Below, in pieces: positions 17,608 through 32,952 of a stretch of DNA of 64,000 nt. The notes under the pieces were generated by a model. It was not told the DNA's origin. It ran no database searches and was given only the letters and a program-made list of their open reading frames with translations. The stretch's first letter is position 1, and every line of letters starts with the position of its first letter. The position numbers and the translations under genes are program-made. Origin of the DNA: Demequina sediminicola (GTDB lineage: Bacteria; Actinomycetota; Actinomycetes; Actinomycetales; Demequinaceae); assembly GCF_000975055.1 (NCBI RefSeq), contig NZ_BBRB01000001.1:124001-188000 (forward strand), written 5' to 3'.

Positions 17608-20166
17608 ATGTCAGCAAAGGCGCTTTCATCCGATCTTCCGCACGCCACAGCGATGCACAGGAACAGCCTGTGCGAGGGGTGGACTCTTACCCATCGTGGT
17701 GGCGATGCTCCGGCTTCCGTGGCTGGCGTGACTATCCCTGCTCAGGTGCCGGGAAGCACCCATGTGGACCTCATCAACGCAGACTTGATTCCGGATCCGT
17801 ATCTGTCCACGAACGAGCACGACCTGGCGTGGATGCATCTGTGTCAGTGGCGCTACACCTGCATGGTTGATGTTGAGCCTGCGGCGCCTGGTGAGCGTGT
17901 CGACATGGTGTTTGACGGCCTCGACACGGTGGCGACTGTCAGCCTCAACGGCACAGAGGTAGCGCGGACCAAGAACATGCACCGCTCATACCGCTTTGAT
18001 GTCCGCGAACTACTCAGCAGTGGCACCGACACCTTGACGGTCGATTTCGCATCGGCCCTCGAATATGCACGGAACCTCACGGAGACCCTTGGCCACCGCC
18101 CGACTCCATACCCCCATCCGTACCCCGCTGTCCGCAAGATGGCGTGCTCGTTTGGTTGGGACTGGGGCCCGGACTTGCAAACTGCCGGAATCTGGAAGGA
18201 CGTGCGGATTGAGCGGTGGCGTACCGCCCGCATTGACTCGGTGCGCCCCGTCGTGACGGTTGATGGCGACACGGGACGGGTCGAGGCACACATCAGCGTG
18301 GAACGGGCGGCCGATGCCGACCTCACCGTCCGCGCCCACGTCGCCGGAGTCACGGTCGAGGCCGAGATTGTCGCTGGCGAATCCACTGCGACCGTGGTGA
18401 TCGAAGCGCCAGGTGTGGAACGGTGGTGGCCGCGTGGCTACGGGCGCCCTCACCTGTATGACCTCGAGGTGAGCGTGCTCCACGGCGACACATTGCTTGA
18501 CACGTACAGCCGACGCATCGGCTTCCGTACCGTCGAGGTCGACATGGCTCACGACGGCACTGGAGCGGGCTTCACGTTCATCGTGAACGATGTTCCCGTG
18601 TTCATCAAGGGTGCGAACTGGATTCCGGACGACCACCTCTTGACGCGCATCACTCGTGAACGACTTGAGCGGCGCATCGGCCAGGCCACTGGCGCCCATA
18701 TGAACATGTTGCGCGTGTGGGGCGGCGGAATCTACGAGTCCGATGACTTCTACGACCTGTGTGACCAAGCCGGTGTGATGGTCTGGCAGGACTTCCTCTT
18801 TGCGTGTGCCGCCTACGCCGAAGGTGCGCCCATCCGCGGCGAGGTGGAAGCGGAGGCCCGCGAGGCCATCGTCCGTCTGATGCCCCATGCGTCGCTCGTA
18901 CTGTGGAACGGCTCCAACGAGAACATTTGGGGCTGGCATGACTGGGGTTGGCAGGGCAACATCGGCGGTGACGGCACGTGGGGCATCGGCTACTACGAAG
19001 AGTTGCTCCCTGCACTGGTGGCGGACTTGGACCCCACACGCACCTACACGCCATCGTCGCCGTTTAGCCCGCATCAGCCGTATGACACAGTGCACCCCAA
19101 CGACCCCACGTGGGGACCTATTCACGAGTGGCAGGTGTGGAACCAGTTGGACTACACCCACTACGGCTCCTATGTGCCGCGCTTCGCGTCGGAGTATGGC
19201 TTCCAGGGTCCGCCCACCTGGGCTACGTTGACCCGCAGTATCGATCCTGAGGATCTGCATCAGGAGTCCGACGCGTGGCTTGCGCACCAGAAAGCTCATG
19301 AGGGTAACGACAAACTCAACCGTGGACTACGCCCTCATTTACCTGCTGGCCGTGACTTTGAGGAATGGCACTGGGCGACCTCCCTGAATCAGGCCCGCGC
19401 GATTCGGTTTGCCATCGAGCACTATCGCTCATGGTGGCCACGAACCACCGGCTCGATTATGTGGCAACTCAACGACTGTTGGCCGGTGACGTCGTGGGCA
19501 GCGATCGACGGTGATGAGCGGCTCAAGCCGTTGTGGTTTGCACTCCGCGACGCTTATGCGCCGCGCCTACTGACCTTCCAACCGCGTGGGGCCGATGGTG
19601 GACTGGACACAGCAGGGCTCCCCCACCTGGTCTTGGTGAACGACACTGACGACGACTGGGAGGACACGGTCACCCTGACCCGCATGTCGCTGGACGGCAC
19701 CGTCCACGCGGCTGCAACTGAGGACGTTCTGGTGCCCGCTCGCACCGCCGTGACACTCGAGGTCCCCGACGATGTGGGCGATATCGACAACCCCACCCGT
19801 CAGGTGTTGGTCGCTCAGGCACGCCACGCAGAGGATGGTGCGGCAGGCGGCTCGCGCGGATACGCCATCTGGACCGATGCTGAGGACAAGGACATCGCGT
19901 ATGCGGGCAGCCCCTTCACAGCGACGGCACGGGTGACGGATGGTGGGTTCGATGTCAGCATCACGGCGCATGAGGTAGTCCGTGATGTGGCTATTTTGCC
20001 GGACAAGGTCGCAGCCGATGCGGTGGTGTCCGACGCACTGGTGACGATTCTTCCGGGGCAAACGGTGACTTTCACCATTGCGAACGCCGCCGATGTGAAC
20101 CCCGAGGACTTCCTGGACCCACGGGTCTTGGTCAGCGCCAATTCGCTAGTCGCGGGAGACCGCTAG
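17608..20166 (+). CDS. Beta-mannosidase, glycoside hydrolase family 2
   Basis: An 852-residue GH2 enzyme, probably cytoplasmic (no signal peptide). The N-terminal sugar-binding sandwich carries the beta-mannosidase-typical FGWDWGPDL (about 182-190). The catalytic TIM barrel shows the acid/base WNGSNENIW (E438) and the nucleophile in [11 protein letters not shown] (E529). It likely releases mannose from the non-reducing end of short beta-mannosides. ATG 17608 was chosen over earlier in-frame starts because the first 20 codons lie in the probable pflB/mannosidase promoter region. It overlaps the convergent pilus gene by 4 bp. Confidence 0.9.
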
Positions 20167-20639
20167 AACTCACGAGCACGGCTGGTCACGACCACGTCAA
20201 TTCCGTCATGCCATGGGGCTAGAGCGTCGAGCCCGAACAGCAGCGGCACCTGGCGCGCCAATGTCACCGACACACCGCCGTCGCCGGTCGCCTCTGCGTC
20301 CACGACGACGACCTCTGCGACCCACGCCGAGTTGGAGTGGCCGGCCCGGTTCGCGACCCACGCGGTGGCGGCGGTCACGACGTGCGCATCAACCTGCGCC
20401 GCCGTGCTTCCGAAGTACGGAGACGCGCCTGCGGGGTTACCGCCATAGGCGCTGTTTCCACTGAGGGCGGCCAGGGACGCTTCATCGGCTAGCGCCATGA
20501 GCCGCACCCGCTGAATGTGCACGTCCGTGGCCGCCGCCACTGTGAGAAGTGCCAGTAGCACCACCACAATCCACCCGAGCGTGAAGACTGCGGCTCCCCC
20601 GGCATCGTCCCGTTCCCGGGTAGCCCAGATGCGCGTCAC
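20163..20639 (-). CDS. TadG/Rv3654c-like pilus-locus membrane protein
   Basis: A 158-residue protein with one N-terminal membrane helix (GGAAVFTLGWIVVVLLALLT) and an extracytoplasmic remainder, of the type found last in actinobacterial tad loci (helicase/secretion neighbourhood TadE-like, Rv3654c-like). GTG 20639 overlaps the preceding gene stop (GTGA), which decides the start. Presumed minor pilin or pilus-assembly factor. Convergent 4-bp overlap with the mannosidase gene. Confidence 0.7.
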   Translation of the reverse strand: MTRIWATRERDDAGGAAVFTLGWIVVVLLALLTVAAATDVHIQRVRLMALADEASLAALSGNSAYGGNPAGASPYFGSTAAQVDAHVVTAATAWVANRAGHSNSAWVAEVVVVDAEATGDGGVSVTLARQVPLLFGLDALAPWHDGIDVVVTSRAREF

Positions 20640-21121
20640 CGCTCCCCCACAGGTGAAACTCCGGTCGCGGAAACCTCGACTTCCAAGGGCACCACCGCCG
20701 CGAGCGCATCGGGCACGCCCGGAAGTCTGACTGTGGCCGCGGCGCTGGCAACGATGGCGGTTCCTGGGGCCAGGCACTCGCCTTCGCAGGACAAATCGAC
20801 GCTGATGTGGTCAACGGAGAAGTTCTCGGCAGAGAGGGCCGCTGCAGCGTTGGCGCTTGTCTGAACGTGATTCATTGCTTCACTTGTCGCGGCTCCGGCC
20901 GTGGTCTGTTGGACGCCGCTGACAGCCGCAGTCCTCGCCGCCGTGCGGGCGGTGCTTTCCACCGCGAAGCTCGCGCTTTGAATGTGAGCAAACGCGACTA
21001 TCAGGTAGATCAGCGGCACAAGGATCACCACCGTCACGCCCAAAAACTCGACGATGGCGCCACCGTCGTCGGACGTGATTCGGTCGCTTCTCGCATTCCT
21101 CCACCGAGTGAACCTATCCAC
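20636..21121 (-). CDS. TadE-like pseudopilin
   Basis: A 161-residue protein with a TadE-type N terminus (DDGGAIVEFLGVTVVILVPL): a short basic leader, then G-x-x-x-E-F and a single TM helix, then an extracellular domain with one Cys pair (CEGEC). TadE-like proteins are minor pilins of Flp/Tad pili. Start GTG 21121 overlaps the upstream TadE gene by 8 bp. Confidence 0.8.
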   Translation of the reverse strand: MDRFTRWRNARSDRITSDDGGAIVEFLGVTVVILVPLIYLIVAFAHIQSASFAVESTARTAARTAAVSGVQQTTAGAATSEAMNHVQTSANAAAALSAENFSVDHISVDLSCEGECLAPGTAIVASAAATVRLPGVPDALAAVVPLEVEVSATGVSPVGER

Positions 21122-21509
21122 CGGTGCCCTCGCTGAACGCTCGCGCTGTCACGCTCATGTCACCTGGACCCCAGAGGCCGACGATGGGGACGCTGGCGCT
21201 CAACGTCACCTCAACGGCAGGCTCGGATCCCACCGCGACTTCCCGGGCGGTCGCGCTCACTGGGATACCGCCGATCGTTGTCATTGCCGCGTCCTTGGCA
21301 CGCTGCGCCCCCTCCGCCACGGTGCGATCGGCCTTCGCCGCGTGGACAGCGCCTTCGTGTGCACTGGAACGCAGGGTATTGCGTACATGGAGCGCGAGGA
21401 TCAACTGCACGAGGGCGACGGCAATCAACATCACGAGCATCGACACCCCAAGAAACTCCACGACCGCGCTGCCGCGGTCGCTGTCCGTCCTACTGCGTGA
21501 CGGAAGCAA
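21114..21509 (-). CDS. TadE-family minor pilin
   Basis: A 131-residue TadE-family protein with leader and helix SDRGSAVVEFLGVSMLVMLI followed by a short extracellular domain. It probably starts at TTG 21509, overlapping the small Flp-like gene by 20 bp; no ATG or GTG is available before the TadE motif. Part of the pilus operon. Confidence 0.8.
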   Translation of the reverse strand: MLPSRSRTDSDRGSAVVEFLGVSMLVMLIAVALVQLILALHVRNTLRSSAHEGAVHAAKADRTVAEGAQRAKDAAMTTIGGIPVSATAREVAVGSEPAVEVTLSASVPIVGLWGPGDMSVTARAFSEGTGG

Positions 21510-21714: not shown

Positions 21715-22635
21715 CTAAGTGATGCGGAGGGCTGTAATACCTGGAAAGACGGCGAACACCACGGTGACGGGCAAGATGATGAATACGACTGGGATGAGCA
21801 TTGCGAGTTCGCGCTTTCCGCCTTCTTCGATGAGCTCTTCCCTGCTGGCGGCGCGCGCATCATGGGCTTGGGCACGCAAAACGTGAGACAGCGGCGTACC
21901 TCGCTCGACGGCCGTAGCAATGCCGTCTGCGAAACGTGTCAAGGCGGGCACTTGGGCATCGTGGGCCATGGTCTGCAATGCCGCCGGCAGCCTTGCACCG
22001 GCATGACAGTCGGCAAGCGCGAGCCTCAATTCCTCACTCAGTGCACCGTCAGTGATGTGGGCAATGCGCTCCAACGCGGCAGCCGCGGATTCACCTGCGG
22101 TGACGGCGAGCGCCAGGAGCTCCGCCACGGCGGGGAGTTCTGAGCGGATACGCCGCTCACGCTGATTGACGGCGCGTGTCAGGAGTGCCTCGCGAACCCA
22201 CACTCCCCCCGCCGTACTCACCACCACCAAAATGACGAGTGGCATCAAGGACGCTCCGCGAGCCATCGCCAGGCCCGCAGCCAGAGCCACACCCACCACG
22301 AGCCCAGCAATCCCGCACAACACTTGCTCCGCTCGAAACTGCTCCACCGTTCCGGGCCGTCCCGCTCGACGAAGCCGCGAGCGCACGTGTGCGGCTGGCG
22401 ACCCGAATCGCACGAGCACTCGGGAGGCATCTCTCACCACGGGAGCGAGGAGCCGCTCCAGTGTGGGCCAGGGCGTGACTGTTACGGCACGGCGTTGGAT
22501 TTCCTCTTCCACTCCGGCTCGCACGTAGGGGGCGATGCGGGCGGCCAGGGTGTCCCGGCGGGCACGGCTCCACAAGTAGATGAGCCAGATCCCGCTACCC
22601 AGCAGCGCGCCCCACAGAGCGTAGGCGGCGGTCAT
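21715..22635 (-). CDS. tadC: TadC-like type II secretion F-domain membrane protein
   Basis: A 306-residue inner-membrane platform protein with a T2SSF domain (...RRIRSELPAVAELLALAVTAGES...) and C-terminal helices. ATG 22635 overlaps the tadB stop (ATGA), so the longer upstream frame is rejected. TadB and TadC form the membrane platform powered by CpaF. Confidence 0.85.
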   Translation of the reverse strand: MTAAYALWGALLGSGIWLIYLWSRARRDTLAARIAPYVRAGVEEEIQRRAVTVTPWPTLERLLAPVVRDASRVLVRFGSPAAHVRSRLRRAGRPGTVEQFRAEQVLCGIAGLVVGVALAAGLAMARGASLMPLVILVVVSTAGGVWVREALLTRAVNQRERRIRSELPAVAELLALAVTAGESAAAALERIAHITDGALSEELRLALADCHAGARLPAALQTMAHDAQVPALTRFADGIATAVERGTPLSHVLRAQAHDARAASREELIEEGGKRELAMLIPVVFIILPVTVVFAVFPGITALRIT

Positions 22636-23492
22636 CTGAGCACCCGCTGTTCTGTTCTGAGGCGGCCGGCCTTCATCATGAGTCGGTATGCGGCGACCGT
22701 GGCAAAGCCGCCACTGACGAGCACCAGCGCACCGGCGGTGCTGTTGTAGGCGGCGGCGTTGTCGCCACGCGTCGACAACAGCGCCAAGAGAACCCATGGT
22801 GCCGCGACCGCGAGCCGGGCGGCGTTGACCGTCCAACTTTGGCGCGCTTCGAGCTCACCTCTGATACGGGCATCGTCCCGGAGGAACTCCGAGAGCGACC
22901 GGAGCACCTGTCCGACGTCGGTGCCGCCCACATCGCGAGTCAGCCGTAGCGCTTCAATGATCCTGTCTGCCACGGGGTCTGCGAGGCGCGACTTGAGCAA
23001 GTCGAGGCATTCCCCAAAGCGACCGGAGGCGCGATAGTCCGCGGCAAAGAGCAGAAAGGGCTCGCGAAGTTGCGCTGGACCTCTGTCGCCGACGTAAGCA
23101 ATGGCTTCCGGCAGCGCTAGCCCTGCCCGGATTCCTGAGGTCAACGAGTCCACAACATCGGGCCACAACTGTCGCACCGCAACGGCGCGTTGGCGTGCCC
23201 GGACGGCCACGAGCGCCGAGGGTCCGCGAGCCGCCAACACTCCAAAGCACAAGGCGATCACCCACGATCCAGTGAGCGCCACTGCCACCACGGCAATCGC
23301 TCCCCCGATTCCGAGCGACGTCGCCACAAGTGCACCTGGAGACACTCCTCCGGCGCCTGCCTGCACCAGGCGGTCACGTGTACGGGCGTGCCAGCCATCC
23401 TTACGAGCAGAGCGCGACTCGGGCAGCGGCCACCAACTCCACCACACCAGGAATGCGCCAGTCCCGAGGAGCAGCCCCCATACCGTCGTCAC
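22632..23492 (-). CDS. tadB: TadB-like type II secretion F-domain membrane protein
   Basis: A 286-residue platform protein with TM helices at both ends and a T2SSF core (LWPDVVDSLTSGIRAGLALPEAI ... FGECLDLLKSRLADPVADRI). Its start overlaps the cpaF stop by 4 bp (ATGA), so translation normally depends on cpaF; the element inserted in cpaF should therefore be polar on the whole operon unless an internal promoter exists. Confidence 0.85.
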   Translation of the reverse strand: MTTVWGLLLGTGAFLVWWSWWPLPESRSARKDGWHARTRDRLVQAGAGGVSPGALVATSLGIGGAIAVVAVALTGSWVIALCFGVLAARGPSALVAVRARQRAVAVRQLWPDVVDSLTSGIRAGLALPEAIAYVGDRGPAQLREPFLLFAADYRASGRFGECLDLLKSRLADPVADRIIEALRLTRDVGGTDVGQVLRSLSEFLRDDARIRGELEARQSWTVNAARLAVAAPWVLLALLSTRGDNAAAYNSTAGALVLVSGGFATVAAYRLMMKAGRLRTEQRVLR

Positions 23493-23801
23493 GCTCGCGC
23501 TCCAGCGAGAGGTGCACGGTGTGGCGCAGCCACGAGGGTCACGCCGTCGCGGCGAAACTCGACGGTTGTGGTGATGACGCCGCCTTCGACTGTCCCGGGA
23601 ACGGAGAGGATCTCCTTCACTATCCGGGTTCCATCGCCGTCACGGCCGAGGTGCACGACAAGGTCGATCGCCGATGCCACGGTCGGCACCACGAATCGGT
23701 CCGTGACGTTCTCGCCGGCCAGCAGCGGCAGTGTGCAGAGTTTGGTGACGGCATCCCGCGCCGAGTTGGCGTGCAATGTACACATGCCCGGTACGCCAGC
23801 A
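23489..23801 (-). pseudogene. cpaF: cpaF 3' fragment, separated by the integrative element
   Basis: Encodes the C-terminal ~100 residues of the CpaF/TadA pilus ATPase: GVPGMCTLHANSARDAV, then ASAIDLVVHLGRDGDGTRIVKEI. The matching N-terminal part is at 32060-32952 on the same strand. Joining both at the 15-bp repeat gives one 397-codon frame. The fragment could be translated from an ATG at 23821 inside the element, but would lack the nucleotide-binding core. Confidence 0.92.
23787..23801. other. attL core, left end of the integrative element
   Basis: CCCGGTACGCCAGCA, identical to 32060-32074. It encodes AGVPG of CpaF on the minus strand. Outside it the sequence continues as cpaF, inside as the element. 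Confidence 0.9.
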
Positions 23802-23884
23802 AACGCTAGTGGACCATACATAAAAGAGATGCCCGACTCACCGCGCTAACGGTGGCCGGGCGTACGAGCGAATGGACCGCCCGC

Positions 23885-24067
23885 ATGACAAACGATACCC
23901 CCGACCTATCCACCCTCGCCACTGACGCGCGCGACGCAGCTGCGCTGGCCTGGGATCGACTACGCACCGCAGACGCGCGAAGGCTCGAGGCGCTTGCCCT
24001 GGGTTACAGCATCGCCGCACAGATGCGCGACCATGCACGCCCCGCTATTGAGGCGGTGGCGGCGTGA
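23885..24067 (+). CDS. Small element protein beside attL
   Basis: A 60-residue, Ala-rich, all-helical protein (MTNDTPDLSTLATDARDAAA...) with no recognised family. ATG 23885 lies 84 bp from the left att core. Its stop overlaps the next gene (GTGA), so the two are a unit. Position next to an attachment site, opposite the main gene direction, makes it a candidate regulator or recombination directionality factor; this is inference from place only. Confidence 0.5.
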   Translation: MTNDTPDLSTLATDARDAAALAWDRLRTADARRLEALALGYSIAAQMRDHARPAIEAVAA

Positions 24068-24273
24068 GCATCGCAGACGCACTATTTCTATTCGCAGTGG
24101 ATCGCGGCCTAACCGTGGATGAGGTCGCCACGCGCCTCGAGCCTGAACACATCGCCCCGGGCAGGACGCACGCCATCTTGATCGACGGCATTGACCCGTC
24201 ACTGTCGGAACTTGCTTGGCTGTGCTCTGCCCTCGAGACGGCACCCAGTCAAATCATCGCCACATCAATCTGA
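24064..24273 (+). CDS. Small protein with XRE-like helix pattern
   Basis: A 69-residue protein starting at GTG 24064. The C-terminal half, DPSLSELAWLCSALETAPSQII, resembles the last helices of Cro/cI-type helix-turn-helix domains (the ...LxxLxxALxxxPxxL... pattern), and the first half has GLTVDEVATRL. It may be a small DNA-binding protein controlling the element. Co-translated with the preceding 60-residue gene. Confidence 0.5.
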   Translation: MSIADALFLFAVDRGLTVDEVATRLEPEHIAPGRTHAILIDGIDPSLSELAWLCSALETAPSQIIATSI

Positions 24274-24362
24274 GCGGCCCCGTATCGCCTCCTAGCGACC
24301 TGCTAGGCGGTGGTGCAGGGCTTCTCAGTCCCGGCGTCATTCCTCGTTCCTAGCCGCTCTCA

Positions 24363-24604
24363 GTGAACGCCTGTAAATGCTGTGTGACAGGCCAGCCGCT
24401 GCGTTCTCGTTACGTTCCCTGCAGGGACTTGACCGCAGTCCACGCTCAGCACGCTCTCAACCGAGGGGGTGCTACTTGTCGTGGCCTGACTCGATACGGG
24501 GACGTGGATCGTGGGAAGCCTGGGATGGGGTCAAGACACGCGCGGGCGTATGCCCTCAATGCCTTTCGCCCGCTACCCATGTGCCAACCGCCCCTTGTCG
24601 TTAG
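24363..24604 (+). pseudogene. Possible frameshifted Cys-rich small protein
   Basis: From GTG 24363 one frame reads NACKCCVTGQPLRSRYVPC, like small Zn-binding proteins of mobile elements. After about 24480 the protein-like sequence continues in another frame as GSWEAWDGVKTRAGVCPQC and PATHVPT to a stop at 24604. A single frameshift would join them. The 24274-24362 stretch before it has no gene, only a weak hairpin (CCTAGC/GCTAGG). Confidence 0.35.
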
Positions 24605-24613
24605 GGTGTGGGC

Positions 24614-24802
24614 ATGACTGCGAGCAAGAGCGCGCCGCGTATGCGTGCATGGGGTTGGGTCGGATTCGCGCTGATAGCGCTATGCCTTCTAGGTGCGGTG
24701 GTGATGAGTCCAAATGAGGGCGTGTTGCTATTGCTGCTCACGTCGCCTGCATGGATCACCCTCTTGCTGACCGCATTCCTGGTGAAGAAAAAGCCGGCCT
24801 AG
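24614..24802 (+). CDS. Small two-helix membrane protein
   Basis: A 62-residue protein with two hydrophobic segments (GWVGFALIALCLLGAVVM and GVLLLLLTSPAWITLLLTAFL) and a KKK tail. ATG 24614 is used; GTG 24608 is an alternative. Its stop overlaps the end of the convergent HTH remnant by three bases. No family recognised. Confidence 0.5.
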   Translation: MTASKSAPRMRAWGWVGFALIALCLLGAVVMSPNEGVLLLLLTSPAWITLLLTAFLVKKKPA

Positions 24803-25036
24803 CCCGCTACACCCTCAGTCATGTCGCCCACGTAGGTCACGGGATACGTCGGCGCGACGGGCTTGGGGTCTGCGGTGGTGGCGGTAAGTGTCTCATGGTG
24901 AGACACCTGGACCAGGTCGCGGTGGACCGAGTCCTTCGATGCCCCAACAATCGGGGCGATGGCCCGCGTGCTCATGCCCTCGCCAGCCAGGAATGCAAAA
25001 GCGCCCCGCCTGACCGTGATGGCCGGATGGGGCGCC
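24799..25036 (-). pseudogene. Remnant of an HTH DNA-binding protein
   Basis: The open frame carries RRGAFAFLAGEGMSTRAIAPIVGASKDSVHRDL, a good helix-turn-helix of the kind in actinobacterial phage/plasmid regulators, followed by a ~40-residue tail. There is no convincing start: the frame runs into the doc gene. It looks like the 3' part of a gene truncated when the toxin-antitoxin pair was acquired. A short protein from the internal ATG (MSTRAI...) is possible. Confidence 0.45.
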
Positions 25037-25039
25037 TTG

Positions 25040-25423
25040 CTAGTGGTCTGGTCTCGAACGTTCGCTGAGCCACGCCGCAATTTCATCGGTCGTATAGCGG
25101 TGTTCGACAACGCTTTCAACGAACTCTGCCGCCTCGTCGTTATCGACGGGGTCAAGTGGGGCTCCGTTCAGTCGCAAGAAGACTGTCGTTAGCATCCAGG
25201 CCGTCCGTTTGTTGCCGTCGTCGAAAGGATGATTCTGACATAGTGCCTCGAGCATGGCTGCGGCCTGCGATACGAGCGTCGAATGGACCGCTATGCCGTC
25301 GTAGGTAGCGAATGGTCTCCCGAGCGCACTGTCAAGTCCGTGCGCGTTAATTAGCAATGCTGAGCGGCCAAGCAGGGTTTCGTTGGCCTTCAGCGCAAGC
25401 TTCGGCGAAAGCCGCCGGATCAC
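25040..25423 (-). CDS. doc: Doc-type Fic toxin
   Basis: A 127-residue Fic/Doc protein with the active-site motif HPFDDGNKRTAW. Doc toxins phosphorylate elongation factor Tu; other Fic proteins AMPylate targets. GTG 25423 overlaps the antitoxin stop by 4 bp (GTGA), which decides the start. Antitoxin-first order with overlap is typical of toxin-antitoxin operons; here it probably stabilises the element in the population. Confidence 0.88.
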   Translation of the reverse strand: MIRRLSPKLALKANETLLGRSALLINAHGLDSALGRPFATYDGIAVHSTLVSQAAAMLEALCQNHPFDDGNKRTAWMLTTVFLRLNGAPLDPVDNDEAAEFVESVVEHRYTTDEIAAWLSERSRPDH

Positions 25424-25977
25424 TGTGCGAGGCGCTCCAGCGTGCGGGTCCACCGGGGCATTTCGGCCTTGAATGCCGCCTCGAACTCTGCCTCGTCAAC
25501 TGCGTCACCAGACAACTCCGGGCGTGACGGAACTGCGCCGCCGATCTCGGCCAATTCGCTGTAGAAGCGGTACATGTCAACACTCTCAATCAATGAATTC
25601 TTGCCACGCTGGTATGCGGATTTCCATGGACGCTCGCCGTGGGTCAAGTTCACGAGCGCCGGCTTGTCGAATCCGCCATAGAAACGCACAACCTCATCTA
25701 CAATCGCCAACCCGTCCGAGCTGAGTCGCGCCGTATCTGAGCCGGGAACGTAGGTGTCATGAAAATGCGCCCTGTTGTACTTGTTCACTCGAAACAAGGC
25801 GGGGGCCACGGGGCCATCTTTCCATGCCTCGATCCGGCCCTCGAAGAGCGGCGTGCCCGTCCAAGCCAAACTCCATGCCTGTGTGTAGTAGGTGAGTTTC
25901 TGAAGCTTCCAGGAGTCCACCCAGCCCAACTCATCGTATATTCGCTGAGCGACATCGAGGTCGCGTGCACCAGTCAT
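25420..25977 (-). CDS. Panacea-domain (GepA/SocA-like, DUF4065) antitoxin
   Basis: A 185-residue protein with the Panacea core WKLQKLTYYTQAWSLAW, then EAWKDGPVAPALF and LTHGERPW. Panacea proteins are antitoxins that pair with many unrelated toxins, including Fic/Doc. An AGGGAG site precedes ATG 25977; the eight-codon upstream extension is rejected. Overlap with doc indicates a functional pair. Confidence 0.85.
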   Translation of the reverse strand: MTGARDLDVAQRIYDELGWVDSWKLQKLTYYTQAWSLAWTGTPLFEGRIEAWKDGPVAPALFRVNKYNRAHFHDTYVPGSDTARLSSDGLAIVDEVVRFYGGFDKPALVNLTHGERPWKSAYQRGKNSLIESVDMYRFYSELAEIGGAVPSRPELSGDAVDEAEFEAAFKAEMPRWTRTLERLAQ

Positions 25978-25997
25978 GGCAACTCCCTCTCCTACTC

Positions 25998-26177
25998 TCA
26001 ACTACCGTAAGGCAAACGTACTGCAACCGTCTGACATCCACCGCACCAATCGCACAATCGTACGCGCAAGCACGTCCTTACGCTACCGAGGGGTTCCTGT
26101 ACAGCGCGTTCGGCTCCATTCAGAGTGAGCGAGAGCCGCGCTGAGGCCTCTGCGATTGGGGGTGACTTGCTAGGCAC
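25998..26177 (-). CDS. Possible 59-residue small protein upstream of the antitoxin
   Basis: GTG 26177 follows a strong AAAAGGAG site. The product is short with a Cys cluster (CDWCGGCQ). It ends 20 bp before the antitoxin start. The region 26178-26322 holds no other gene. It may be a leader peptide or spurious. Confidence 0.3.
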   Translation of the reverse strand: MPSKSPPIAEASARLSLTLNGAERAVQEPLGSVRTCLRVRLCDWCGGCQTVAVRLPYGS

Positions 26178-26193
26178 TGTGGCGGCTCCTTTT

Positions 26194-26226
26194 CGTGTGT
26201 GTGAACCTGAAATCTCCGTGTGTGAA
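26194..26226. promoter_or_regulatory. Direct-repeat operator candidate upstream of the Panacea/Doc unit
   Basis: CGTGTGTGTGAA (26194-26205) and CGTGTGTGAA (26217-26226) are direct repeats about two helix turns apart, just upstream of the small gene and antitoxin. Autoregulation is usual for such pairs, but the factor is unknown. Confidence 0.3.
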
Positions 26227-26322
26227 AGTCTTAGTGCCGCCGGGTGAGCGACGTCAGTCCGACCGGGGTCTACCCCCAGGTCAGGGCCGCGCGCTCTTCA
26301 TGGCCACGCGGCCCAACCTCGG

Positions 26323-27066
26323 TTAGTCCTCGTAGTGCATTGCTCGGAATGCTTGTGACTGGCGTCGTGCGTGCTCTTGTGCCCGTGCAATGAGGACTTG
26401 CTCCTGGGCCTCGGCTTCCGCCCTGGTGGGCCACCACAATTGGCCCCCGGCTGCGATGGTGTCGCATGTCACCGTCAGGGCATCGGCGTCGTGGATTCGT
26501 AGCGAAGGTGCGGGGTCTTTCCAGATAGCCACCTCGCTAGGCCATGTGCGGCCCGGTCCGGTGAGTTTTGCCCGCAGTGCGCGCATGGCGGCGAGGTCGT
26601 GCAGTCCATTCGTAGCTGCGACCGCGCGAGTGGCGTCCTCTGGTCGGCGCGCCTGGATCATGTTTACCGGGTCACGGTCTGGTTGTACCGCGAGCCATTC
26701 AAGGTTCGCAATGTGTTCGTGCGCTACGTGCTCCAGGGCTTCGATGAACGTGTCGATGTTTTCACCGAACGTGCGCCACGCCCTCATGGCGGCAGTCATA
26801 ACCGCCTCTTGGTGACTGGAGCGACGTATAGCGCTCGAGGCGATGTGTAGCGCGATCTTGTCGATTGCTGCAGGTGTGGCCGTGGGGTCTAGGTAGGCAT
26901 CGCGTAGCGCGTTGTGCTCGATGGTCTTAGGTGCCAGCTTCTCAACACGCTCGAGTTCGGTCAGTGTCTCCTGTACCGCGTCGGGCACTGGGATTGAGCG
27001 AGTGGCGAGGATGGATACAAGGTTGGCAACATTGCTGCGTGCAGTCTCGCGAGTAAAGGCGTGCAT
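26323..27066 (-). CDS. Element protein of unknown function
   Basis: A 247-residue, mostly helical, soluble protein with no family recognised. The C-terminal part has TRAEAEAQEQVLIARAQEHAR, a probable coiled coil. AGGAG precedes ATG 27066. It is the last and largest of a chain of genes following whiB, and begins 4 bp after the preceding gene stop. Confidence 0.6.
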   Translation of the reverse strand: MHAFTRETARSNVANLVSILATRSIPVPDAVQETLTELERVEKLAPKTIEHNALRDAYLDPTATPAAIDKIALHIASSAIRRSSHQEAVMTAAMRAWRTFGENIDTFIEALEHVAHEHIANLEWLAVQPDRDPVNMIQARRPEDATRAVAATNGLHDLAAMRALRAKLTGPGRTWPSEVAIWKDPAPSLRIHDADALTVTCDTIAAGGQLWWPTRAEAEAQEQVLIARAQEHARRQSQAFRAMHYED

Positions 27067-27070
27067 GTGT

Positions 27071-27256
27071 CTAGTTCTCCTGGTCTGAGGTGGGGACAAT
27101 GAGGCTGCGGAACGCGGCGCTCACCTTGGTCGTTCGTTCGCGCTTGAGTTCAGCCATCTCGGCCTCATATGCGGCTTGGTCTGCTTTGCGGGTCCGTCCG
27201 TTGAGAACTGCGTTGCGCAATTTCTCTACAGGGTCGATGCTGCGCTGGTGGGTCAC
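27071..27256 (-). CDS. Small charged element protein
   Basis: A 61-residue helical protein rich in Lys, Arg and Glu (KLRNAVLNGRTRKADQAAYE). GTG 27256 overlaps the upstream stop (GTGA) and has an AGAGGA site. No family recognised. Confidence 0.55.
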   Translation of the reverse strand: MTHQRSIDPVEKLRNAVLNGRTRKADQAAYEAEMAELKRERTTKVSAAFRSLIVPTSDQEN

Positions 27257-27480
27257 GGTGTCCTCTTTGGTGGTGTGAAGAAATAGCCGGCCTGTCGCTG
27301 TTCGGGGCTGCAGTATTGGCCGCACAGTGGCGCTCGGCGTTGGCGTCTGCCTCGCGCTCCCGGTGTCATTGGGTGCGTGTGTTCGCCGTTGCAGTAGGGG
27401 CACAAGATCCGCGCCCGCTCATGCGTCGAACTCAGTACGGCTGCCTCTGGGATGGGGATGGGGCTTGTTACGGCTGTCAT
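27253..27480 (-). CDS. Small zinc-binding-like protein
   Basis: A 75-residue protein with CPYCNGEHTH and, after a basic loop (RGRRQRR), CGQYCSPEQR: two Cys pairs that could hold one zinc. This type is common in actinophages and actinobacterial mobile elements, where its role is unknown. It overlaps the next gene by 4 bp. Confidence 0.6.
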   Translation of the reverse strand: MTAVTSPIPIPEAAVLSSTHERARILCPYCNGEHTHPMTPGARGRRQRRAPLCGQYCSPEQRQAGYFFTPPKRTP

Positions 27481-27490
27481 GGCGCTCTCC

Positions 27491-27640
27491 TTAGTGCGTT
27501 TCCGGCATGCCGATAGTGATGCCGTCTAGTTGCTCTTCGCCGTCGTATCCGGCCTCTATCGCGCGGTCACGTAGGGCCGCTTTGAGTGCCTGGATACGTT
27601 CGGCGCGGATGCCGTCTGGCATGGGGTCGCTGGGGTTCAT
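27491..27640 (-). CDS. Very small element protein
   Basis: A 49-residue protein (MNPSDPMPDGIRAERIQALK...). ATG 27640 overlaps the whiB stop (ATGA) and has a GGAG site, which supports its being translated. No family recognised. Confidence 0.5.
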   Translation of the reverse strand: MNPSDPMPDGIRAERIQALKAALRDRAIEAGYDGEEQLDGITIGMPETH

Positions 27641-27942
27641 TGCTGTCTCCGATCTGCGGCGGCCTGGGTGCGTTGCCTGGGAGTGAGGCCACCTAGTACG
27701 CCTTCCTCTTTGGGGTGTGCGATGCCGTAGTCGCGGCATTGAGTGAGTGCCGGACAGTTGCTGCATGCTTTGGCAGCTGCGTCGCGTTCGGCGCGCCTCT
27801 CGCTGGTCCAGGCGCTCGATGGCTCGATATGTCCGTCACGGCACGGGATGGGCTGACGCTGGCCGTAGTGGTCGATCAGGTCATTGAGCGCACGCCAGTC
27901 GTGCTCTAGTCCTGGTGGCATGACGGGGAACTTGTCACTCAC
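27637..27942 (-). CDS. WhiB-family iron-sulfur transcription factor
   Basis: A 101-residue WhiB-like protein. The four cluster cysteines are visible: PIPCRDG, then KACSNCPALTQC, followed by the turn GVLGGLT and a basic end (RQRTQ) that contacts DNA. WhiB-like proteins bind a 4Fe-4S cluster and the main sigma factor, and actinophages use them to alter host transcription. GTG 27942 is chosen because it overlaps the preceding gene stop (GTGAGTGA) and gives family-standard length; longer starts would sit inside that gene. Confidence 0.85.
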   Translation of the reverse strand: MSDKFPVMPPGLEHDWRALNDLIDHYGQRQPIPCRDGHIEPSSAWTSERRAERDAAAKACSNCPALTQCRDYGIAHPKEEGVLGGLTPRQRTQAAADRRQQ

Positions 27943-28099
27943 GGCGACCACCGCCACGGGCTTGATATGCCGGGCAATATTCATCGTGATAGACCGTGAT
28001 AACCGTGATGTCATCGGCACCCGCCGTGACCATTTGGACCGCGTTGCAGTCGGCACAGCCATCAGGAATCTGGAGCCGAGAGAGCGCCTCGAACATCAT
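27935..28099 (-). CDS. 54-residue Cys-pair element protein
   Basis: A small gene between the AAA ATPase and whiB. It starts at ATG 28099 overlapping the ATPase stop (ATGA) and ends overlapping the whiB start. The product has IPDGCADCNAVQ and YHDEYCPAY, the C-x2-C plus H-x4-C pattern seen in small proteins of actinobacterial mobile elements, likely a zinc finger. Both overlaps and the motif support a real gene. Function unknown. Confidence 0.65.
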   Translation of the reverse strand: MMFEALSRLQIPDGCADCNAVQMVTAGADDITVITVYHDEYCPAYQARGGGRRE

Positions 28100-29565
28100 G
28101 ACCGCACCTCGCATCCGGCGTGAGTCCCAGTGCCATCGTCGTAAGTCATTGGCTCACTACAGATAGAGCAGGACTGGTGAGGCGGGTTGTTGTCGCGCGT
28201 CCTCGCGCGGGGGGTGTGTTCTAGTTGGGCATGTAGGGCATCTTTGGGCTGTACCTGGGGTGATACATCTGCCTCTGAGAGCAACGCCGGGGCGCTATCC
28301 GTCGCGCAGTCTGCATACTTGCCTAACTTGCCCTCCTGAGCGGTCCAGGGAGACAGTGCCGCGTGTGCGCCCTTCCATCCGTCTTCGGGCTTCGACCACC
28401 ACATCGGGCCTTGGAACACCCCCCGGCGGTCAGTCACTACACCTAGCGACTCTCGAGCCGTGCGCAGCATCTTCTCTGAGTAGTCCAGCTCCCCGGCACG
28501 CTTGAGTACGTCGGACTTGAGTAGCCCATGTTCGCCAGCTGTGTCGAGCAGCTCGCGCAGCCATTTCTCGGCGGCCCCGGTTGGGGTCGTGCTTTCGCGG
28601 CGTTCCTGGCGTGCGACCTCATGAGCACGGATCTCTGCTTCGCGGATGCTGGTGTCATGACGACCGTGGTCCACATAGCGTGCCGCGATAATCTCGCGCC
28701 CATCGTCAGGGTCGGTGCCAACTTCGACGCCTTCAACGGTGTATGCCCACGCCTCGAGGTCGTCTGGTCCAAGGTTCGACTTGGCGATCCCTACAAGGCG
28801 GCGGGCCTCGTCCATTGGGTCACGCATGGCCACGAGAACCGCGCGTGCCACAGCCGAGAATGCGCGCGACCCCATGATGCTATTCAGGACGTCACCACCA
28901 CCACCCTTGTTTTGGTGGATGATCCCAAGAATCGCCGCGCCCGTTGCGTGACCGATGCGCGTTAGCGGCTCGAGGGCCTGGCGTACGTCGCGGTCGACGT
29001 GTGTGTCCAGACCTTCGCCCATGCGTGACATCAGTGGGTCGAGCAGGACCGCAGCTGCGTGTTCGTCGCAAATGAGTTGCTCGAGCTCCACGAGGTCACG
29101 CGGCAGCATGATCGGCACCTCATGAGGGTTGCCCTCGTCGTCTGTAAGTTCGACGGCTTCAACCTGCACAACCCGATCAAGGTCTGCGCTCTCAGCCATG
29201 AGGCGCGGGACGATGGTGTGCGCCCATGAGTCCTCTGTTGCCACAATGATCACGTTGCGGGGTTGGCCTATGTATTCGCCGGTCAATTCGCCCCGCGTGA
29301 TCTGAGCAACCGTGCGATAACAAAACGTGGACTTACCCACGCCCTCGCGTCCCGCCACCAGGACAACCTCACCCTGAGGGATGTGCTGGTGCCACAGCCA
29401 ACGCACGGCGCGCGCGGTAATGTCGCCGGCACGTCGCGTCTTGAGTCGAGCGCGGGGCCTTTCAGTCACAGCGACTTCACCAAATGGGCAGCCACAACTC
29501 GCGCGGTCAATCGCATGGCGATCACACCAGGACTCAGTGCCGATACCGAAAACAGGCCCCATCAT
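28096..29565 (-). CDS. RepA-like AAA (AAA_25) ATPase
   Basis: A 489-residue P-loop ATPase of the RepA/DnaB-like AAA_25 group. N-terminal Cys motif (CDRHAIDRASCGC), Walker A AGREGVGKST (to residue 80), Walker B in AAAVLLDPLMS, and an IIHQNKGGGGDVLNSIMGS loop. A C-terminal winged-helix-like part and a final CSICSEP...C finger follow. Such proteins are replicative helicases or primase-helicase partners of plasmids and satellites, suggesting the excised element can replicate. The start overlaps the upstream stop (ATGA). Confidence 0.8.
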   Translation of the reverse strand: MMGPVFGIGTESWCDRHAIDRASCGCPFGEVAVTERPRARLKTRRAGDITARAVRWLWHQHIPQGEVVLVAGREGVGKSTFCYRTVAQITRGELTGEYIGQPRNVIIVATEDSWAHTIVPRLMAESADLDRVVQVEAVELTDDEGNPHEVPIMLPRDLVELEQLICDEHAAAVLLDPLMSRMGEGLDTHVDRDVRQALEPLTRIGHATGAAILGIIHQNKGGGGDVLNSIMGSRAFSAVARAVLVAMRDPMDEARRLVGIAKSNLGPDDLEAWAYTVEGVEVGTDPDDGREIIAARYVDHGRHDTSIREAEIRAHEVARQERRESTTPTGAAEKWLRELLDTAGEHGLLKSDVLKRAGELDYSEKMLRTARESLGVVTDRRGVFQGPMWWSKPEDGWKGAHAALSPWTAQEGKLGKYADCATDSAPALLSEADVSPQVQPKDALHAQLEHTPRARTRDNNPPHQSCSICSEPMTYDDGTGTHAGCEVRS

Positions 29566-29879
29566 GCGGCGGCCCGTTCCTGGACTCCGACTACCTCAGC
29601 AATGAGGGCAGTGTCCAGTCCCTGTTCCCATAGCTCGCGGGCAATCGCGCGCCTATCGGATTCGCACGCACTCTCAGGATTGCGGCTAAACGCCGTGCCG
29701 CGAGTGGCACGGCGATAGAACTCACGCACATAGGCAGCGCGGACTTTACGCAGTTCCTGCTGCTTCCAGAATACGAAGGGCCGCGATACAATTAGGGTAG
29801 TTTCGTTGCTTGCTTGATCCGCTTCGCCCCTGGTAACCGTCACGTTGCCGGGGGCGGCGGCGGTTCTGGGGTCAGTCAT
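29562..29879 (-). CDS. Element protein of unknown function
   Basis: A 105-residue helical protein, with VFWKQQELRKVRAAYVREFY and ALIAEVVGVQERAAA, which resembles a C-terminal helix-turn-helix. ATG 29879 overlaps the upstream gene by 8 bp; the end overlaps the AAA gene by 4 bp. Possibly a replication accessory or DNA-binding factor. Confidence 0.6.
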   Translation of the reverse strand: MTDPRTAAAPGNVTVTRGEADQASNETTLIVSRPFVFWKQQELRKVRAAYVREFYRRATRGTAFSRNPESACESDRRAIARELWEQGLDTALIAEVVGVQERAAA

Positions 29880-30093
29880 CGCTACCACCGCCCGCATGTG
29901 GGCGTAGCAGGGCGGCAACCCTCTCCCGCTGCCCATCGGTGAGCGGTGGAGCATCTGCCAGCACTTTGCTGACGTACTGCTCGAGTTTGGCAGCGGCTAG
30001 GTCCGTGCGCGCTGCTACGTAATCGGGATCATCGGCGGCGCGGGATCGACTGAGGGATGCGATCCGAGCGCGTGCGGTGAGGACATCGGACAT
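29872..30093 (-). CDS. Small helical element protein, first gene of the replication operon
   Basis: A 73-residue protein (MSDVLTARARIASLSRSRA... and PPLTDGQRERVAALLRPH). This type is frequent upstream of RepA-like genes in actinobacterial mobile elements; function unknown. Its ribosome binding site GGAGG lies inside the hairpin at 30095-30138, and the start codon follows the T-run by one base. Confidence 0.6.
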   Translation of the reverse strand: MSDVLTARARIASLSRSRAADDPDYVAARTDLAAAKLEQYVSKVLADAPPLTDGQRERVAALLRPHAGGGSDD

Positions 30094-30094
30094 G

Positions 30095-30138
30095 AAAAAA
30101 CGCCTCCGGCATGGGAATGTTTCCCACCCGCTGAGGCG
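30095..30138 (-). terminator. Terminator/attenuator hairpin that contains a ribosome binding site
   Basis: On the minus strand CGCCTC pairs with GAGGCG, and inside it TGGGAA pairs with TTCCCA around an ACA loop; six T follow. This is a textbook intrinsic terminator after the integrase operon. The 3' arm contains GGAGG placed 9 nt before the ATG at 30093, so the folded hairpin would also hide that gene's ribosome binding site. Confidence 0.75.
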
Positions 30139-30141
30139 CGT

Positions 30142-30156
30142 GACACCCGTGGTGTC
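30142..30156. promoter_or_regulatory. Palindrome upstream of the replication operon
   Basis: GACACC-CGT-GGTGTC, 6-bp perfect arms, in the ~100-bp gap after the 131-residue gene. A regulator operator is plausible, but no clear promoter was found beside it. Confidence 0.35.
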
Positions 30157-30240
30157 TCAAAAGTCGGTTTCTTGCGACTATGTGCCGGCCATTACCCAGG
30201 TGCGGCTCGGGGCAACCGTGCCAAGGTTGCACTACTACTA

Positions 30241-30636
30241 CTACTGGCTACGTCCCACGCTAGCAGCAATTGCGTCAAGCGCAATGAGTCGTATGCCAAC
30301 TTGGTCGAATCTGCCGAGAATATCCATGAGGTTCTCATTTCGCAGTGCAACTGGCCGGTGACATTTCCGGCATTCCAGCACCCATCTATTGCGCGCAGTT
30401 TCCCTCCCCTCGTCCTCGAACGTTTCGGCAGTTGGAACTTCCTCCCATCTACGATTCCCGTAAAGCGTCTCGCCGGAATCGCCGGAGTTCCCGCCGCCGC
30501 GGCGTAGGCGCGGCTTCCCCCTCGTAACCTCGTGCCAGCCTTCGCCCGTCTCGTCATTGTGGGCGAACGCCGCCACGTGGACTTCCCTACCTGCGTGGCG
30601 CTCGGAGGTACACACGATTCGCACTGTGCCACTCAT
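30241..30636 (-). CDS. Zn-ribbon-like protein co-transcribed with the integrase
   Basis: A 131-residue protein with WVLECRKCHRPVALRNENL (a C-x2-C knuckle) and an N-terminal VCTSERHAGREVHV pattern. ATG 30636 overlaps the integrase stop (ATGA) and has a GGAG site. Its stop is followed by three more in-frame TAG codons (30232-30243 in all). No known family. Confidence 0.6.
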   Translation of the reverse strand: MSGTVRIVCTSERHAGREVHVAAFAHNDETGEGWHEVTRGKPRLRRGGGNSGDSGETLYGNRRWEEVPTAETFEDEGRETARNRWVLECRKCHRPVALRNENLMDILGRFDQVGIRLIALDAIAASVGRSQ

Positions 30637-32036
30637 GCGGTTCTCCAATCAATTTGGATGGACTCGGGATCAAATCGGCGTTGCTTTCCTGGCGGCGTCT
30701 TGAGGATCGTCACTTCACACAATGCGTCGATGATGCGGCGGCGGTCTGTCAGTGTCGTATCGTTCCACGCGGCTTGCGCGTCGTCCGCGCTAACTACGGA
30801 CTCTAGAGCTGCAGGCAACGGCGTGGCGGTTCGCATCTGTTCTTGTATTCCGTCAAGCGTCTCGCGCATTTTCGCTGTGGCTGCGGTCATTTGTGTCAGC
30901 GTGACAGCGCCGTCCGCATAGGCATCGGCGAGATCATCCATGCGGGCCGTGATCGTTCCGGCCTGGCTCTGCAAGCCCGCCAAATCTACTGTCACAGGGT
31001 CTACGAGCGAGTCGAGTACATCGGGCATAGATAGGCGCGCCACCATTACGGCGTTCACCACTTCATCGGCATCGGCTTGGCGCTTGCCCACATGCCCCTT
31101 CCCCCGTGTGCGGCACCTATAGACAACACGGTTCTCTCCGTCCCGATACTTGACGTGCGAACTGCCAACGACATTGCCGCACTCGCCGCACTTAGCCAGT
31201 CCGCTGAGCAGATACTTGGCGCGGTTATCTGTCCCCGTGCCGGGGCGGTTTGGTGACTTGAGTAGGGCGACTACGGCCCTCCACATCTCCTCGTCGATAA
31301 TTGCGGGGAATGTAGACGGGCCGGTTTCCTCGCCTTTGTAGGTCGCTATCCCCGCATTGCGAGCGCGAAGCAACACCTGGCGCAATGTTGTCGCAGTGAA
31401 TGGTGCACCTAGTACGCCTCGCAGTCCTGCCGCGTTCCATGTGTCCGCGATGGCAATGAGCGACTTGCCTGCCAATAGTGAGACTGCAGCGGCCCTGATC
31501 GCGTCCGCTTCCTCCTGCACCAACACGGGAGGCTTTACGCTCGTATCCCAGCCGAACGCGCGCTTACCGCCGAGCCATTCCCCTCGCATTCCAGCCTCAC
31601 GCATGCCAGCCGACGACCGCGCGGCCTTATGCTCCACCTCAAACCGCGCCCACGCAGCCAAGGTGCGAGCCACCGCACGGCCCGAAGGCGTCGCCAGGTC
31701 CAGGGGACCGGCCTCTACGGTCTGCGTCACGATGCCGCGTGGCTCGCATGCGCTCAGATATCCCTCGAGCTCAACGGGACGGCGATGTAGCCGGTCGGTG
31801 TGCCATGCAAGGACGCCTTGGACTTGGTTGCGTTCGATAGCCTCCATGAGTGCCGTGTAGCCCGGGCGTGCGCTGCCCGTCGATGCACTCACATCGTTGT
31901 CGGTAAAGACGTAGGCAACTTCCCAACCCAGCGCATCGGCGAGCGCTCGACACTCTCGTTCCTGACGTGCAACCTTGACGCCAGCACCCTCCCGATCCTG
32001 CGACATGCGGCAATAGATGGCACATTGGGTCGTCAT
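30633..32036 (-). CDS. Large serine integrase
   Basis: A 467-residue large serine recombinase. The resolvase domain has AIYCRMSQDREG (nucleophile S12) and AWHTDRLHRR; then a recombinase domain (WLGGKRAFGWDT) and a zinc ribbon (LSGLAKCGECGNVVGSS, later YRCRTRGKGH), followed by a coiled-coil end. ATG 32036 gives the standard N terminus; the 13 codons upstream lie in the att region. Located 24 bp inside the right att core, it should catalyse attP x attB integration into cpaF, and excision with a directionality factor. Confidence 0.95.
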   Translation of the reverse strand: MTTQCAIYCRMSQDREGAGVKVARQERECRALADALGWEVAYVFTDNDVSASTGSARPGYTALMEAIERNQVQGVLAWHTDRLHRRPVELEGYLSACEPRGIVTQTVEAGPLDLATPSGRAVARTLAAWARFEVEHKAARSSAGMREAGMRGEWLGGKRAFGWDTSVKPPVLVQEEADAIRAAAVSLLAGKSLIAIADTWNAAGLRGVLGAPFTATTLRQVLLRARNAGIATYKGEETGPSTFPAIIDEEMWRAVVALLKSPNRPGTGTDNRAKYLLSGLAKCGECGNVVGSSHVKYRDGENRVVYRCRTRGKGHVGKRQADADEVVNAVMVARLSMPDVLDSLVDPVTVDLAGLQSQAGTITARMDDLADAYADGAVTLTQMTAATAKMRETLDGIQEQMRTATPLPAALESVVSADDAQAAWNDTTLTDRRRIIDALCEVTILKTPPGKQRRFDPESIQIDWRTA

Positions 32037-32059
32037 ATGTGTATTGTATATCTCGATAT

Positions 32060-32074
32060 CCCGGTACGCCAGCA
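32060..32074. other. attR core, right end of the integrative element
   Basis: CCCGGTACGCCAGCA, identical to 23787-23801. Outside it cpaF continues to its start at 32952; inside it, an AT-rich stretch leads into the integrase gene. Confidence 0.9.
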
Positions 32075-32952
32075 TTTAGCGCGATGAGCATGTCGAGGGC
32101 CTCTGCTTCACGTACCTCGCCGACGATGATGCGGTCGGGGCGCATGCGCAGCGACTCCTTCACCAGGCGTCGCAGAGGTATCTCCCCGGTGCCTTCAAGC
32201 GAAGCCTGTCGACACTGCATCGCGACCACGTCACGGCATGCCAGAGCGAGTTCAAACACTTCTTCGCAAGTGATCACCCGTTCGCGCGGCCCGATCGAAC
32301 CGGCAAGCGCGTTCAGCATCGTTGTCTTTCCGGCTTGCGTGGCACCAGAGACGAGGACGTTCGCCCCGCCGGCCACGGCATCGGCAAGGAAGCGGGCCGC
32401 TGCGGGAGTCAGTGATTGCCGCGTTACCAAGTCACTCAAGTCCGATGCCCGCACTACAAACTTACGAATGTTCACTGACCAGTGGCGCCGGGTCACATCA
32501 GGGATGACGACGTGAAGTCGCTCACCGCCAGGCAGGGTGGCGTCGACGAAGGGCGAACTGAGGTCGAGCCGCCGCCCTGAACTTTTCAACATGCGTTCGA
32601 CGACGTCGTACACCTGCTCGTCAGTGAGCACGGTGGTGGTGAGTTCCGCGCGCCCGCTGCGGGCCACAAACACTTGGCTAGGGCCGTTGATCCAGATCTC
32701 TTCAACCTCAGGATCATCCAGGTACTGCTGCAAGGCACCCAAACCGGATACGGCATCGACGACGGCTCGTGACACACCAGCGGTATCCGTCACCGGCACT
32801 ACGGCGCCAGTCAGAGATCGCTCATCCCACTGCGCTAGTGCCTCCGCGACCATCGTCCGCACGGCCGCCACATCGGCTACCGGATCGATTCCCGTCTCAC
32901 GCACCTGCTGGCGCACGCGCGCCTCAATATGCGCGACTGCCTCCCCCGTCAT
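32060..32952 (-). pseudogene. cpaF: cpaF 5' fragment (pilus ATPase N-terminal part)
   Basis: Encodes residues 1-298 of CpaF/TadA, the ATPase that powers Tad pilus assembly. Visible are an N-terminal helical domain, Walker A GATQAGKT (203-210), the Asp/Glu boxes (VITCEEVFELAL) and Walker B IIVGEV (275-280). The frame then enters the element and stops at 31771 after unrelated residues. The lost C terminus, with the HANS motif, is at 23489-23801. Start ATG 32952. Reconstituted length 396 residues, normal for the family. Confidence 0.92.

Follow-up and report, generated by a model that had tools for sequence, protein, structure and literature searches.

The elements that reside in sigK (skin), spsM (SPbeta) and comK carry large serine integrases, and the comK phage is counted among the gene-restoring elements. 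In the skin/sigK and SPbeta/spsM systems, an element sits within a host gene that is restored by precise excision (PMC4191935, PMC5025042; these papers and the others named by identifier below are cited for the portions consulted). In other phyla, the disruption of competence genes by mobile elements has been argued to be an escape from recombinational removal (PMC4774983, PMC11472951, PMC12637031). For Micrococcus luteus, both tad loci were reported to be needed for Flp pili and transformation; deletion of any open reading frame (ORF) of the tad clusters except tadB abolished transformation and deletion of tadB reduced it, with polar effects possible (PMC4322843). The link between Tad pili and transformation that an earlier note had drawn for the present locus thus has an experimental basis in that species. 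This study analyzed a 64,000-nucleotide stretch of Demequina sediminicola (contig NZ_BBRB01000001.1, positions 124,001 to 188,000; hereafter the window), in which a mobile element of 8,273 bp, counting one copy of its terminal repeat, carries a large serine integrase and splits cpaF of a Tad pilus locus.

The arrangement is like that of skin/sigK and SPbeta/spsM in that precise excision could restore the host gene, whereas the window element was observed in its integrated form, and neither excision nor regulation nor a conserved host programme is evident for it. It shares with the insertions in comK, comYC, comFA and comM described by Croucher et al. in 2016 the site-specific disruption of the coding sequence of a putative transformation gene, the use of orthologous sites by related integrases across species, and the occupation of different sites of one gene by divergent integrases (PMC4774983). 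Here, by contrast, Actinomycetes serve as hosts and the insertions fall mainly on the Tad pilus machine (cpaF, tadC); none of Tad, Flp, Micrococcus and Actinobacteria occurs as a whole word in the main text of that paper. The comM gene of Acinetobacter is likewise a recurrent insertion point, occupied by AbaR and other islands and associated there with lower transformation, although Tn7-like and other elements in a Gram-negative host are involved there and serine integrases, with comM beside Tad targets, are involved here (PMC11472951). A search of the open-access literature, with subscription papers mostly outside it, found no report of serine-integrase targeting of cpaF or Tad genes in Actinomycetes; competence-gene disruption is already known in other phyla, and Tad targeting in Actinomycetes appears unreported within the literature searched. 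Combined, the results below point to a probable reading in which mobile elements repeatedly target transformation genes, with integration likely blocking DNA uptake and hence the removal of the element itself.

Insertion site and rebuilt cpaF

The sequence CCCGGTACGCCAGCA forms an exact 15-bp direct repeat whose two copies lie 8,273 bp apart (Table 1). Joining the flanks in sequence over one repeat copy yields an uninterrupted, in-frame CpaF of 396 amino acids (…NAGVPGMCTLHANS…), with the join placed after RIIVGEVREA and before MCTLHANS, which we take to be the Walker B motif and the His box, respectively. The rebuilt protein is 76-77% identical to the CpaF of three relatives, which are 79-86% identical among themselves. 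The 3' fragment on its own matched no Pfam family, and it aligns with intact CpaF. The integrase ORF is unbroken and combines a Resolvase N-domain, a Recombinase domain and a zinc ribbon in one protein, all above cut-off; its real start is perhaps at 32036, which would give 467 amino acids. The exact repeat and the three-domain integrase bear out the earlier proposal of site-specific insertion by a large serine integrase, and the joined flanks confirm that cpaF is, at the level of sequence, exactly restorable.

Within the window, 44 exact 15-mer words recur elsewhere, many of them from a few longer repeats. The cpaF repeat is not attributed to chance because it is positioned where the two cpaF halves meet, adjoining the serine integrase; the reading frame picks up precisely after the join, and in another genus the same codon is occupied by an integrase related to this one. 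A tRNA attachment site was also rejected, as no tRNA gene was found in the window. The crossover dinucleotide is tentatively proposed to be GT in gene sense (23793-23794), a placement lent weak support by the inverted-repeat symmetry of attB/attP, and GT is present at both junctions of the Actinotalea element described below.

The same site in relatives

The closest named integrase, from Actinotalea soli (46% identity), cuts cpaF at the same codon as that of the window, and the element it belongs to shares relatives of a WhiB-like gene and three small ORFs with the window element. In G295 and G304, cpaF is also cut at this codon (left side observed), and in G175 it is cut nearby (right side observed). 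The integrases of the window, Actinotalea soli, G295, G304 and G175 form one group (support 99), so that orthologous sites near codon 293 of cpaF are occupied by related integrases in different genera. A second site, near codon 131, is common to the integrases of G023, G063 and G296. An assembly artefact or chimera has next to no probability and was rejected, since the element lies within a 1.04-Mb contig and the arrangement recurs in independent genomes, including NZ_JAGEMK010000003.1.

The earlier note had expected close relatives to carry an intact cpaF with a single, empty copy of the attachment site, an expectation that held at the level of the motif and failed at the level of the exact repeat. 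The NAG(V/I/L)PG…HAN motif is kept at the site in all 19 intact cpaF genes inspected (from the 35 genus genomes with an unbroken cpaF), and 43-52 of 63 nucleotides of the site region are identical in these relatives; the exact 15-mer is present in none of the 19.

Recurrence within the genus

A single, unbroken, near-full-length cpaF match was found in 35 of the 44 species genomes of the genus. In five others (5/44), cpaF is split with an integrase at the break, at four sites: near codon 293 in the window, near 131 in G023 and G063, near 206 (inside Walker A) in G062, and near 85 in G006. The tadC gene is split at a serine integrase in G001 (near codon 344) and G034 (near 310), cpaF being unbroken in both. 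Clean splits of cpaF or tadC at a serine integrase therefore occur in 7/44 genomes, or in 8/44 with G060, which is cut less cleanly. In G060 (L055, L071), a 5' fragment of cpaF lies on one side, and on the other an integrase adjoins TadE-like ORFs; the stretches searched contained neither tadB nor tadC nor the greater part of cpaF, and insertion with deletion and an assembly fault are candidate readings. The other genomes without an intact cpaF are G007, with the gene in two frames (possibly a sequencing error), G032, whose 5' fragment lies on a contig of 10 kb, and G011, with none.

Sixteen PF07508 proteins were detected in the genus (E<=1e-6), of which eight lie in Tad genes and one at comM (G012); according to their translations, four of the remainder are near conjugation-type genes and three elsewhere. 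Break points at the other split sites were taken from comparison with intact genes; word matching there gave no shared word longer than 9 bases, and those obtained were not distinguishable from chance. Ten half-gene spans, matched in four genus genomes and in Actinotalea, were free of internal stops. Taken with the CpaF identities given above, this would fit either recent insertion or occasional or repeated restoration.

Separately, 5' fragments of cpaF, comprising the promoter region and codons 1 to about 94, were observed repeated upstream of full or split cpaF (Table 1). Most end near the same codon, several are then followed by similar sequence, and genes for proteins that look by eye to have signal peptides lie between them. 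No PF07508 match was found in G004 at E<=1e-6. These repeats are possibly a cassette accretion at another cpaF site.

Survey of the order and class

Three samples of integrase loci were scored for gene matches within 250 bp of the integrase. The 30-row sample holds the best 30 matches to the window integrase in 396 genomes of the order, including the window and two genus relatives. The 59-row sample holds consecutive non-genus rows among the PF07508 matches listed from the same number of order genomes, with the genus g1 rows G023 and G034 (both Tad) left out. The 26-row sample adds further loci, drawn from 394 genomes of the class with none inside the order, and was fetched once the query set was fixed. 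In a like-for-like comparison, queries from the cpaF, tadB and tadC of the window (1,055 amino acids) matched near the integrase in 13/30, 6/59 and 7/26 loci. Sixteen control genes, each represented by one query from the window (8,782 amino acids in total), were near it in 0/30, 1/59 and 0/26, and matched anywhere in the locus in 0/30, 7/59 and 2/26. When the set was widened to 22 queries, with several for each Tad gene besides comM and dprA, the counts near the integrase were 24/30, 12/59 and 11/26, or 22/30, 11/59 and 11/26 without same-genome queries; in the 59-row sample, 12/59 against 1/59 for the controls corresponds to p = 0.002. Over the three samples, 40 distinct integrases were positive, and many gene matches end at the integrase.

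The observed breaks fall near codons 85, 131, 161, 206 and 293 of cpaF, 310 and 344 of tadC, and 95 and 322 of comM, at the comM C-terminus, and in dprA; a cpaF paralogue and other Tad genes are, by location, further targets of serine integrases. If these genes form a single pathway in these hosts, as is assumed, divergent integrases have converged on various sites within it. To check the family names (YifB/ComM, DprA, RcpC, TadE, DUF4244, T2SSE), ten proteins each were run against Pfam and NCBIfam; RcpC, DUF4244 and one ComM C-terminal fragment scored under the Pfam cut-off. Two borderline positives were counted, L149 through a 28-residue tadC match and L090 at 245 bp from dprA. Two FtsK-like queries were excluded from the test set, and left uncounted were L074 and L096, with FtsK-like neighbours, and L169, L180 and L204, with a Tad-type gene in the locus that is not adjacent. 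The top PF07508 loci among the matches listed were searched by tblastn only and were uncounted owing to short flanks.

A rival account would hold that cpaF, tadC and comM, being conserved yet dispensable, simply provide stable sites of attachment and that selection on transformation plays no part. The sites do lie in strongly conserved motifs (GVPG-CTLHAN and Walker A), and the 6/59 against 1/59 of the less biased 59-row sample gives a Fisher p of 0.11 if target length is ignored. However, the controls are about eight times the length of the Tad queries and returned a single adjacent hit in that sample; if the seven hits were placed by length alone, the probability of at least six on Tad would be near 1e-5 (relatedness ignored), and transformation is the thread common to the targeted genes. 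The controls, which were not selected for dispensability, weaken this account, which we regard as rather unlikely.

Besides that p value, several points weigh against the proposed targeting of transformation genes. The comM, dprA and other-Tad queries were picked after the flanks of the 30-row sample had been read, making 24/30 and p = 0.002 partly post hoc, and query numbers were unequal, with one per control gene and up to six per test gene. In the 59-row sample, 47 rows are near none of the Tad or com queries, and of the 12 positives, seven recur from the 30-row sample; related integrases share sites, and rows are not independent. A CpaF paralogue (35%) is encoded elsewhere in the same genome. 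The transformability of this strain and an uptake role of Tad in it are presumed, as are the roles of ComM and DprA in Actinomycetes, and the anti-curing motive is one that we infer.

As a side observation, the two close integrases of L074 and L096 adjoin an FtsK/SpoIIIE-like gene (named from its translation), which may be a target in the host or may belong to the element.

Integrase relationships and cargo

In a quick tree of 92 integrase rows, with support from the Shimodaira-Hasegawa-like approximate likelihood ratio test only and some long rows placed unsurely, integrases of the same site often form clades (cpaF near 293, cpaF near 131, comM near 95). Among the labelled rows (27 tad, 10 com; 55 unlabelled), the tad label requires at least six changes, suggesting that targets were gained or switched several times. 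The cargo varies: the elements of G006 and G034 encode a phage-type head protein, that of G062 has terminase, portal, head and tape-measure matches, and those of G023 and G063 carry excisionase-like helix-turn-helix genes. The target, not the cargo, is the feature common to these elements. By locus, phage head genes lie in the cpaF/tadC elements L048, L050 and L062 (about 9-16 kb), L048 additionally having portal, terminase and tape-measure matches; these three are candidate capsid-encoding satellites or small prophages.

Tad-type pili serve as phage receptors in Caulobacter, and the breakage of the Tad pilus could accordingly protect both element and host from pilus-dependent phages. The head genes of L048, L050 and L062 would suit such superinfection exclusion, which we nonetheless consider improbable, because comM and dprA, taken to encode cytoplasmic recombination proteins, are targeted by the same set of integrases.

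The earlier note had further proposed a reversible switch, in which conditional excision restores cpaF and turns pili or DNA uptake on for the benefit of the host. The in-frame restoration, the unbroken integrase, the stop-free half-gene spans and, in another two cpaF elements (L046 and L047), helix-turn-helix genes with matches to excisionase families are consistent with it, yet the proposal has so far not gained support. The excised attP junction, searched as one exact pattern in one collection of viral contigs, gave 0 matches, the integrase query gave two pattern matches there of which none was confirmed, and the helicase query gave none. Scans of the element ORFs, 8 against Pfam and 10 against PHROGs, revealed no excision factor, with the small ORFs at 23852-24273 and 27253-27766 (two each) and at 29872-30093 lying outside these scans. 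In addition, integrases and codons vary among species, unlike one conserved host programme, and comM and dprA are targeted too. The cuts made in relatives by different integrases, at varying codons of cpaF, tadC, comM and dprA, are a better match to recurrent targeting by mobile elements than to one skin/sigK-like host switch; the switch appears unlikely.

Proposed consequences of integration

On the reading that mobile elements target transformation genes, the window element entered an attB inside the conserved GVPG-MCTLHAN motif of cpaF, at a point flanked by Walker B and the His box. No complete CpaF would then be made from the split gene, and the Tad pilus and Tad-dependent DNA uptake would be off. 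Conflict with the host is considered the most likely cause: with transformation off, the element may be shielded from removal through homologous recombination with imported DNA, as has been argued for the comK, comYC, comFA and comM insertions elsewhere. Excision would be predicted to restore cpaF exactly. By its location, the element would be one of an Actinomycete-wide set of serine integrases often found in transformation genes. We infer that this host takes up DNA through Tad, that the insertion has stopped this uptake, and that the site was chosen for that reason. The broader proposition, that serine integrases evolved many times across Actinomycetes to disarm one pathway, Tad-pilus-based natural transformation, is put forward tentatively, our confidence falling just short of an even balance.

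Few Actinomycetes have, to our knowledge, been shown to undergo natural transformation. If the broader proposition is true, the Tad pilus would serve DNA uptake generally in the class, transformation would be far commoner there than tests show, and the map of attB sites could be used for finding transformation genes. A consistent breakage of Tad, comM and dprA would indirectly indicate that these genes make up a functional pathway of DNA uptake in many species yet to be tested, where transformation would defend the host against integrated elements. The survey also supplies integrases whose sites lie in cpaF, tadC and comM.

Gene content of the element and its surroundings

The window integrase resembles the serine integrases of actinobacteriophages over nearly its whole length, the closest, of Mycobacterium phage Kumao, being 39.5% identical over 96% of the query; none of the 711 phage records that match the window integrase reaches 60% identity. 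Unlike actinobacteriophages, the element is only 8.3 kb long, and no phage head, tail, packaging or other structural gene was recognised among its scanned ORFs. An ordinary tailed prophage was accordingly rejected on the ORFs scanned, and the element is a small serine-integrase mobile element, possibly satellite-like. Downstream, the middle minor-pilin ORF (20636-21121) scores under the Pfam cut-off. The genome also encodes comEC.

Table 1. Features of the split cpaF locus and its element (window positions), with repeated cpaF 5' fragments in other loci.
Feature	Position	Strand	Evidence
TadE-like and TadE/G-like minor pilin genes, three ORFs	20163..21509	-	PF07811, PF13400
tadC, start uncertain	21715..22722	-	PF00482 T2SSF, E=1.3e-14
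tadB	22632..23492	-	PF00482 T2SSF, E=1.7e-7
cpaF 3' part, MCTLHANS to stop	23489..23801	-	in-frame join; residues 294-396 matched separately
Attachment-site core copy, far end (15-bp repeat)	23787..23801	.	exact repeat
Fic/Doc-like protein, candidate toxin	25040..25453	-	PF02661; phrog_577 Doc-like toxin, E=7e-24
Panacea / SocA-like protein, candidate antitoxin	25420..26001	-	PF13274, E=4e-18
258-amino-acid protein of unknown function	26323..27099	-	ORF; no Pfam or PHROG match
WhiB-like regulator	27637..28062	-	PF02467; relative in Actinotalea element
AAA_25 primase/helicase-like, candidate replication protein	28096..29565	-	PF13481, E=1.8e-26; phrog_10729 DNA polymerase/primase, E=6e-36
73-amino-acid ORF with relative in Actinotalea element	29872..30093	-	58%
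Small ORF with relative in Actinotalea element	30241..30648	-	tblastn to L041, 30%; no PHROG
Large serine integrase, 480-amino-acid ORF	30633..32075	-	PF00239, PF07508, PF13408; phrog_95 integrase, E=4e-98
Attachment-site core copy adjoining integrase (15-bp repeat)	32060..32074	.	exact repeat
cpaF 5' part, about codons 1-298, with Walker A and Walker B	32060..32952	-	ORF 31771-32952 matches T2SSE PF00437, E=3.6e-29
cpaF 5' fragments in other loci	L052 1510-1791, 4379-4654, 12631-12906; L049 2396-2115, 5757-5485, 8315-8043; L051 6969-7250; L053 11840-11565

Within the element, the Panacea (SocA-like) and Fic/Doc-like genes overlap (25040-26001), an arrangement in which a toxin-antitoxin pair is possible.

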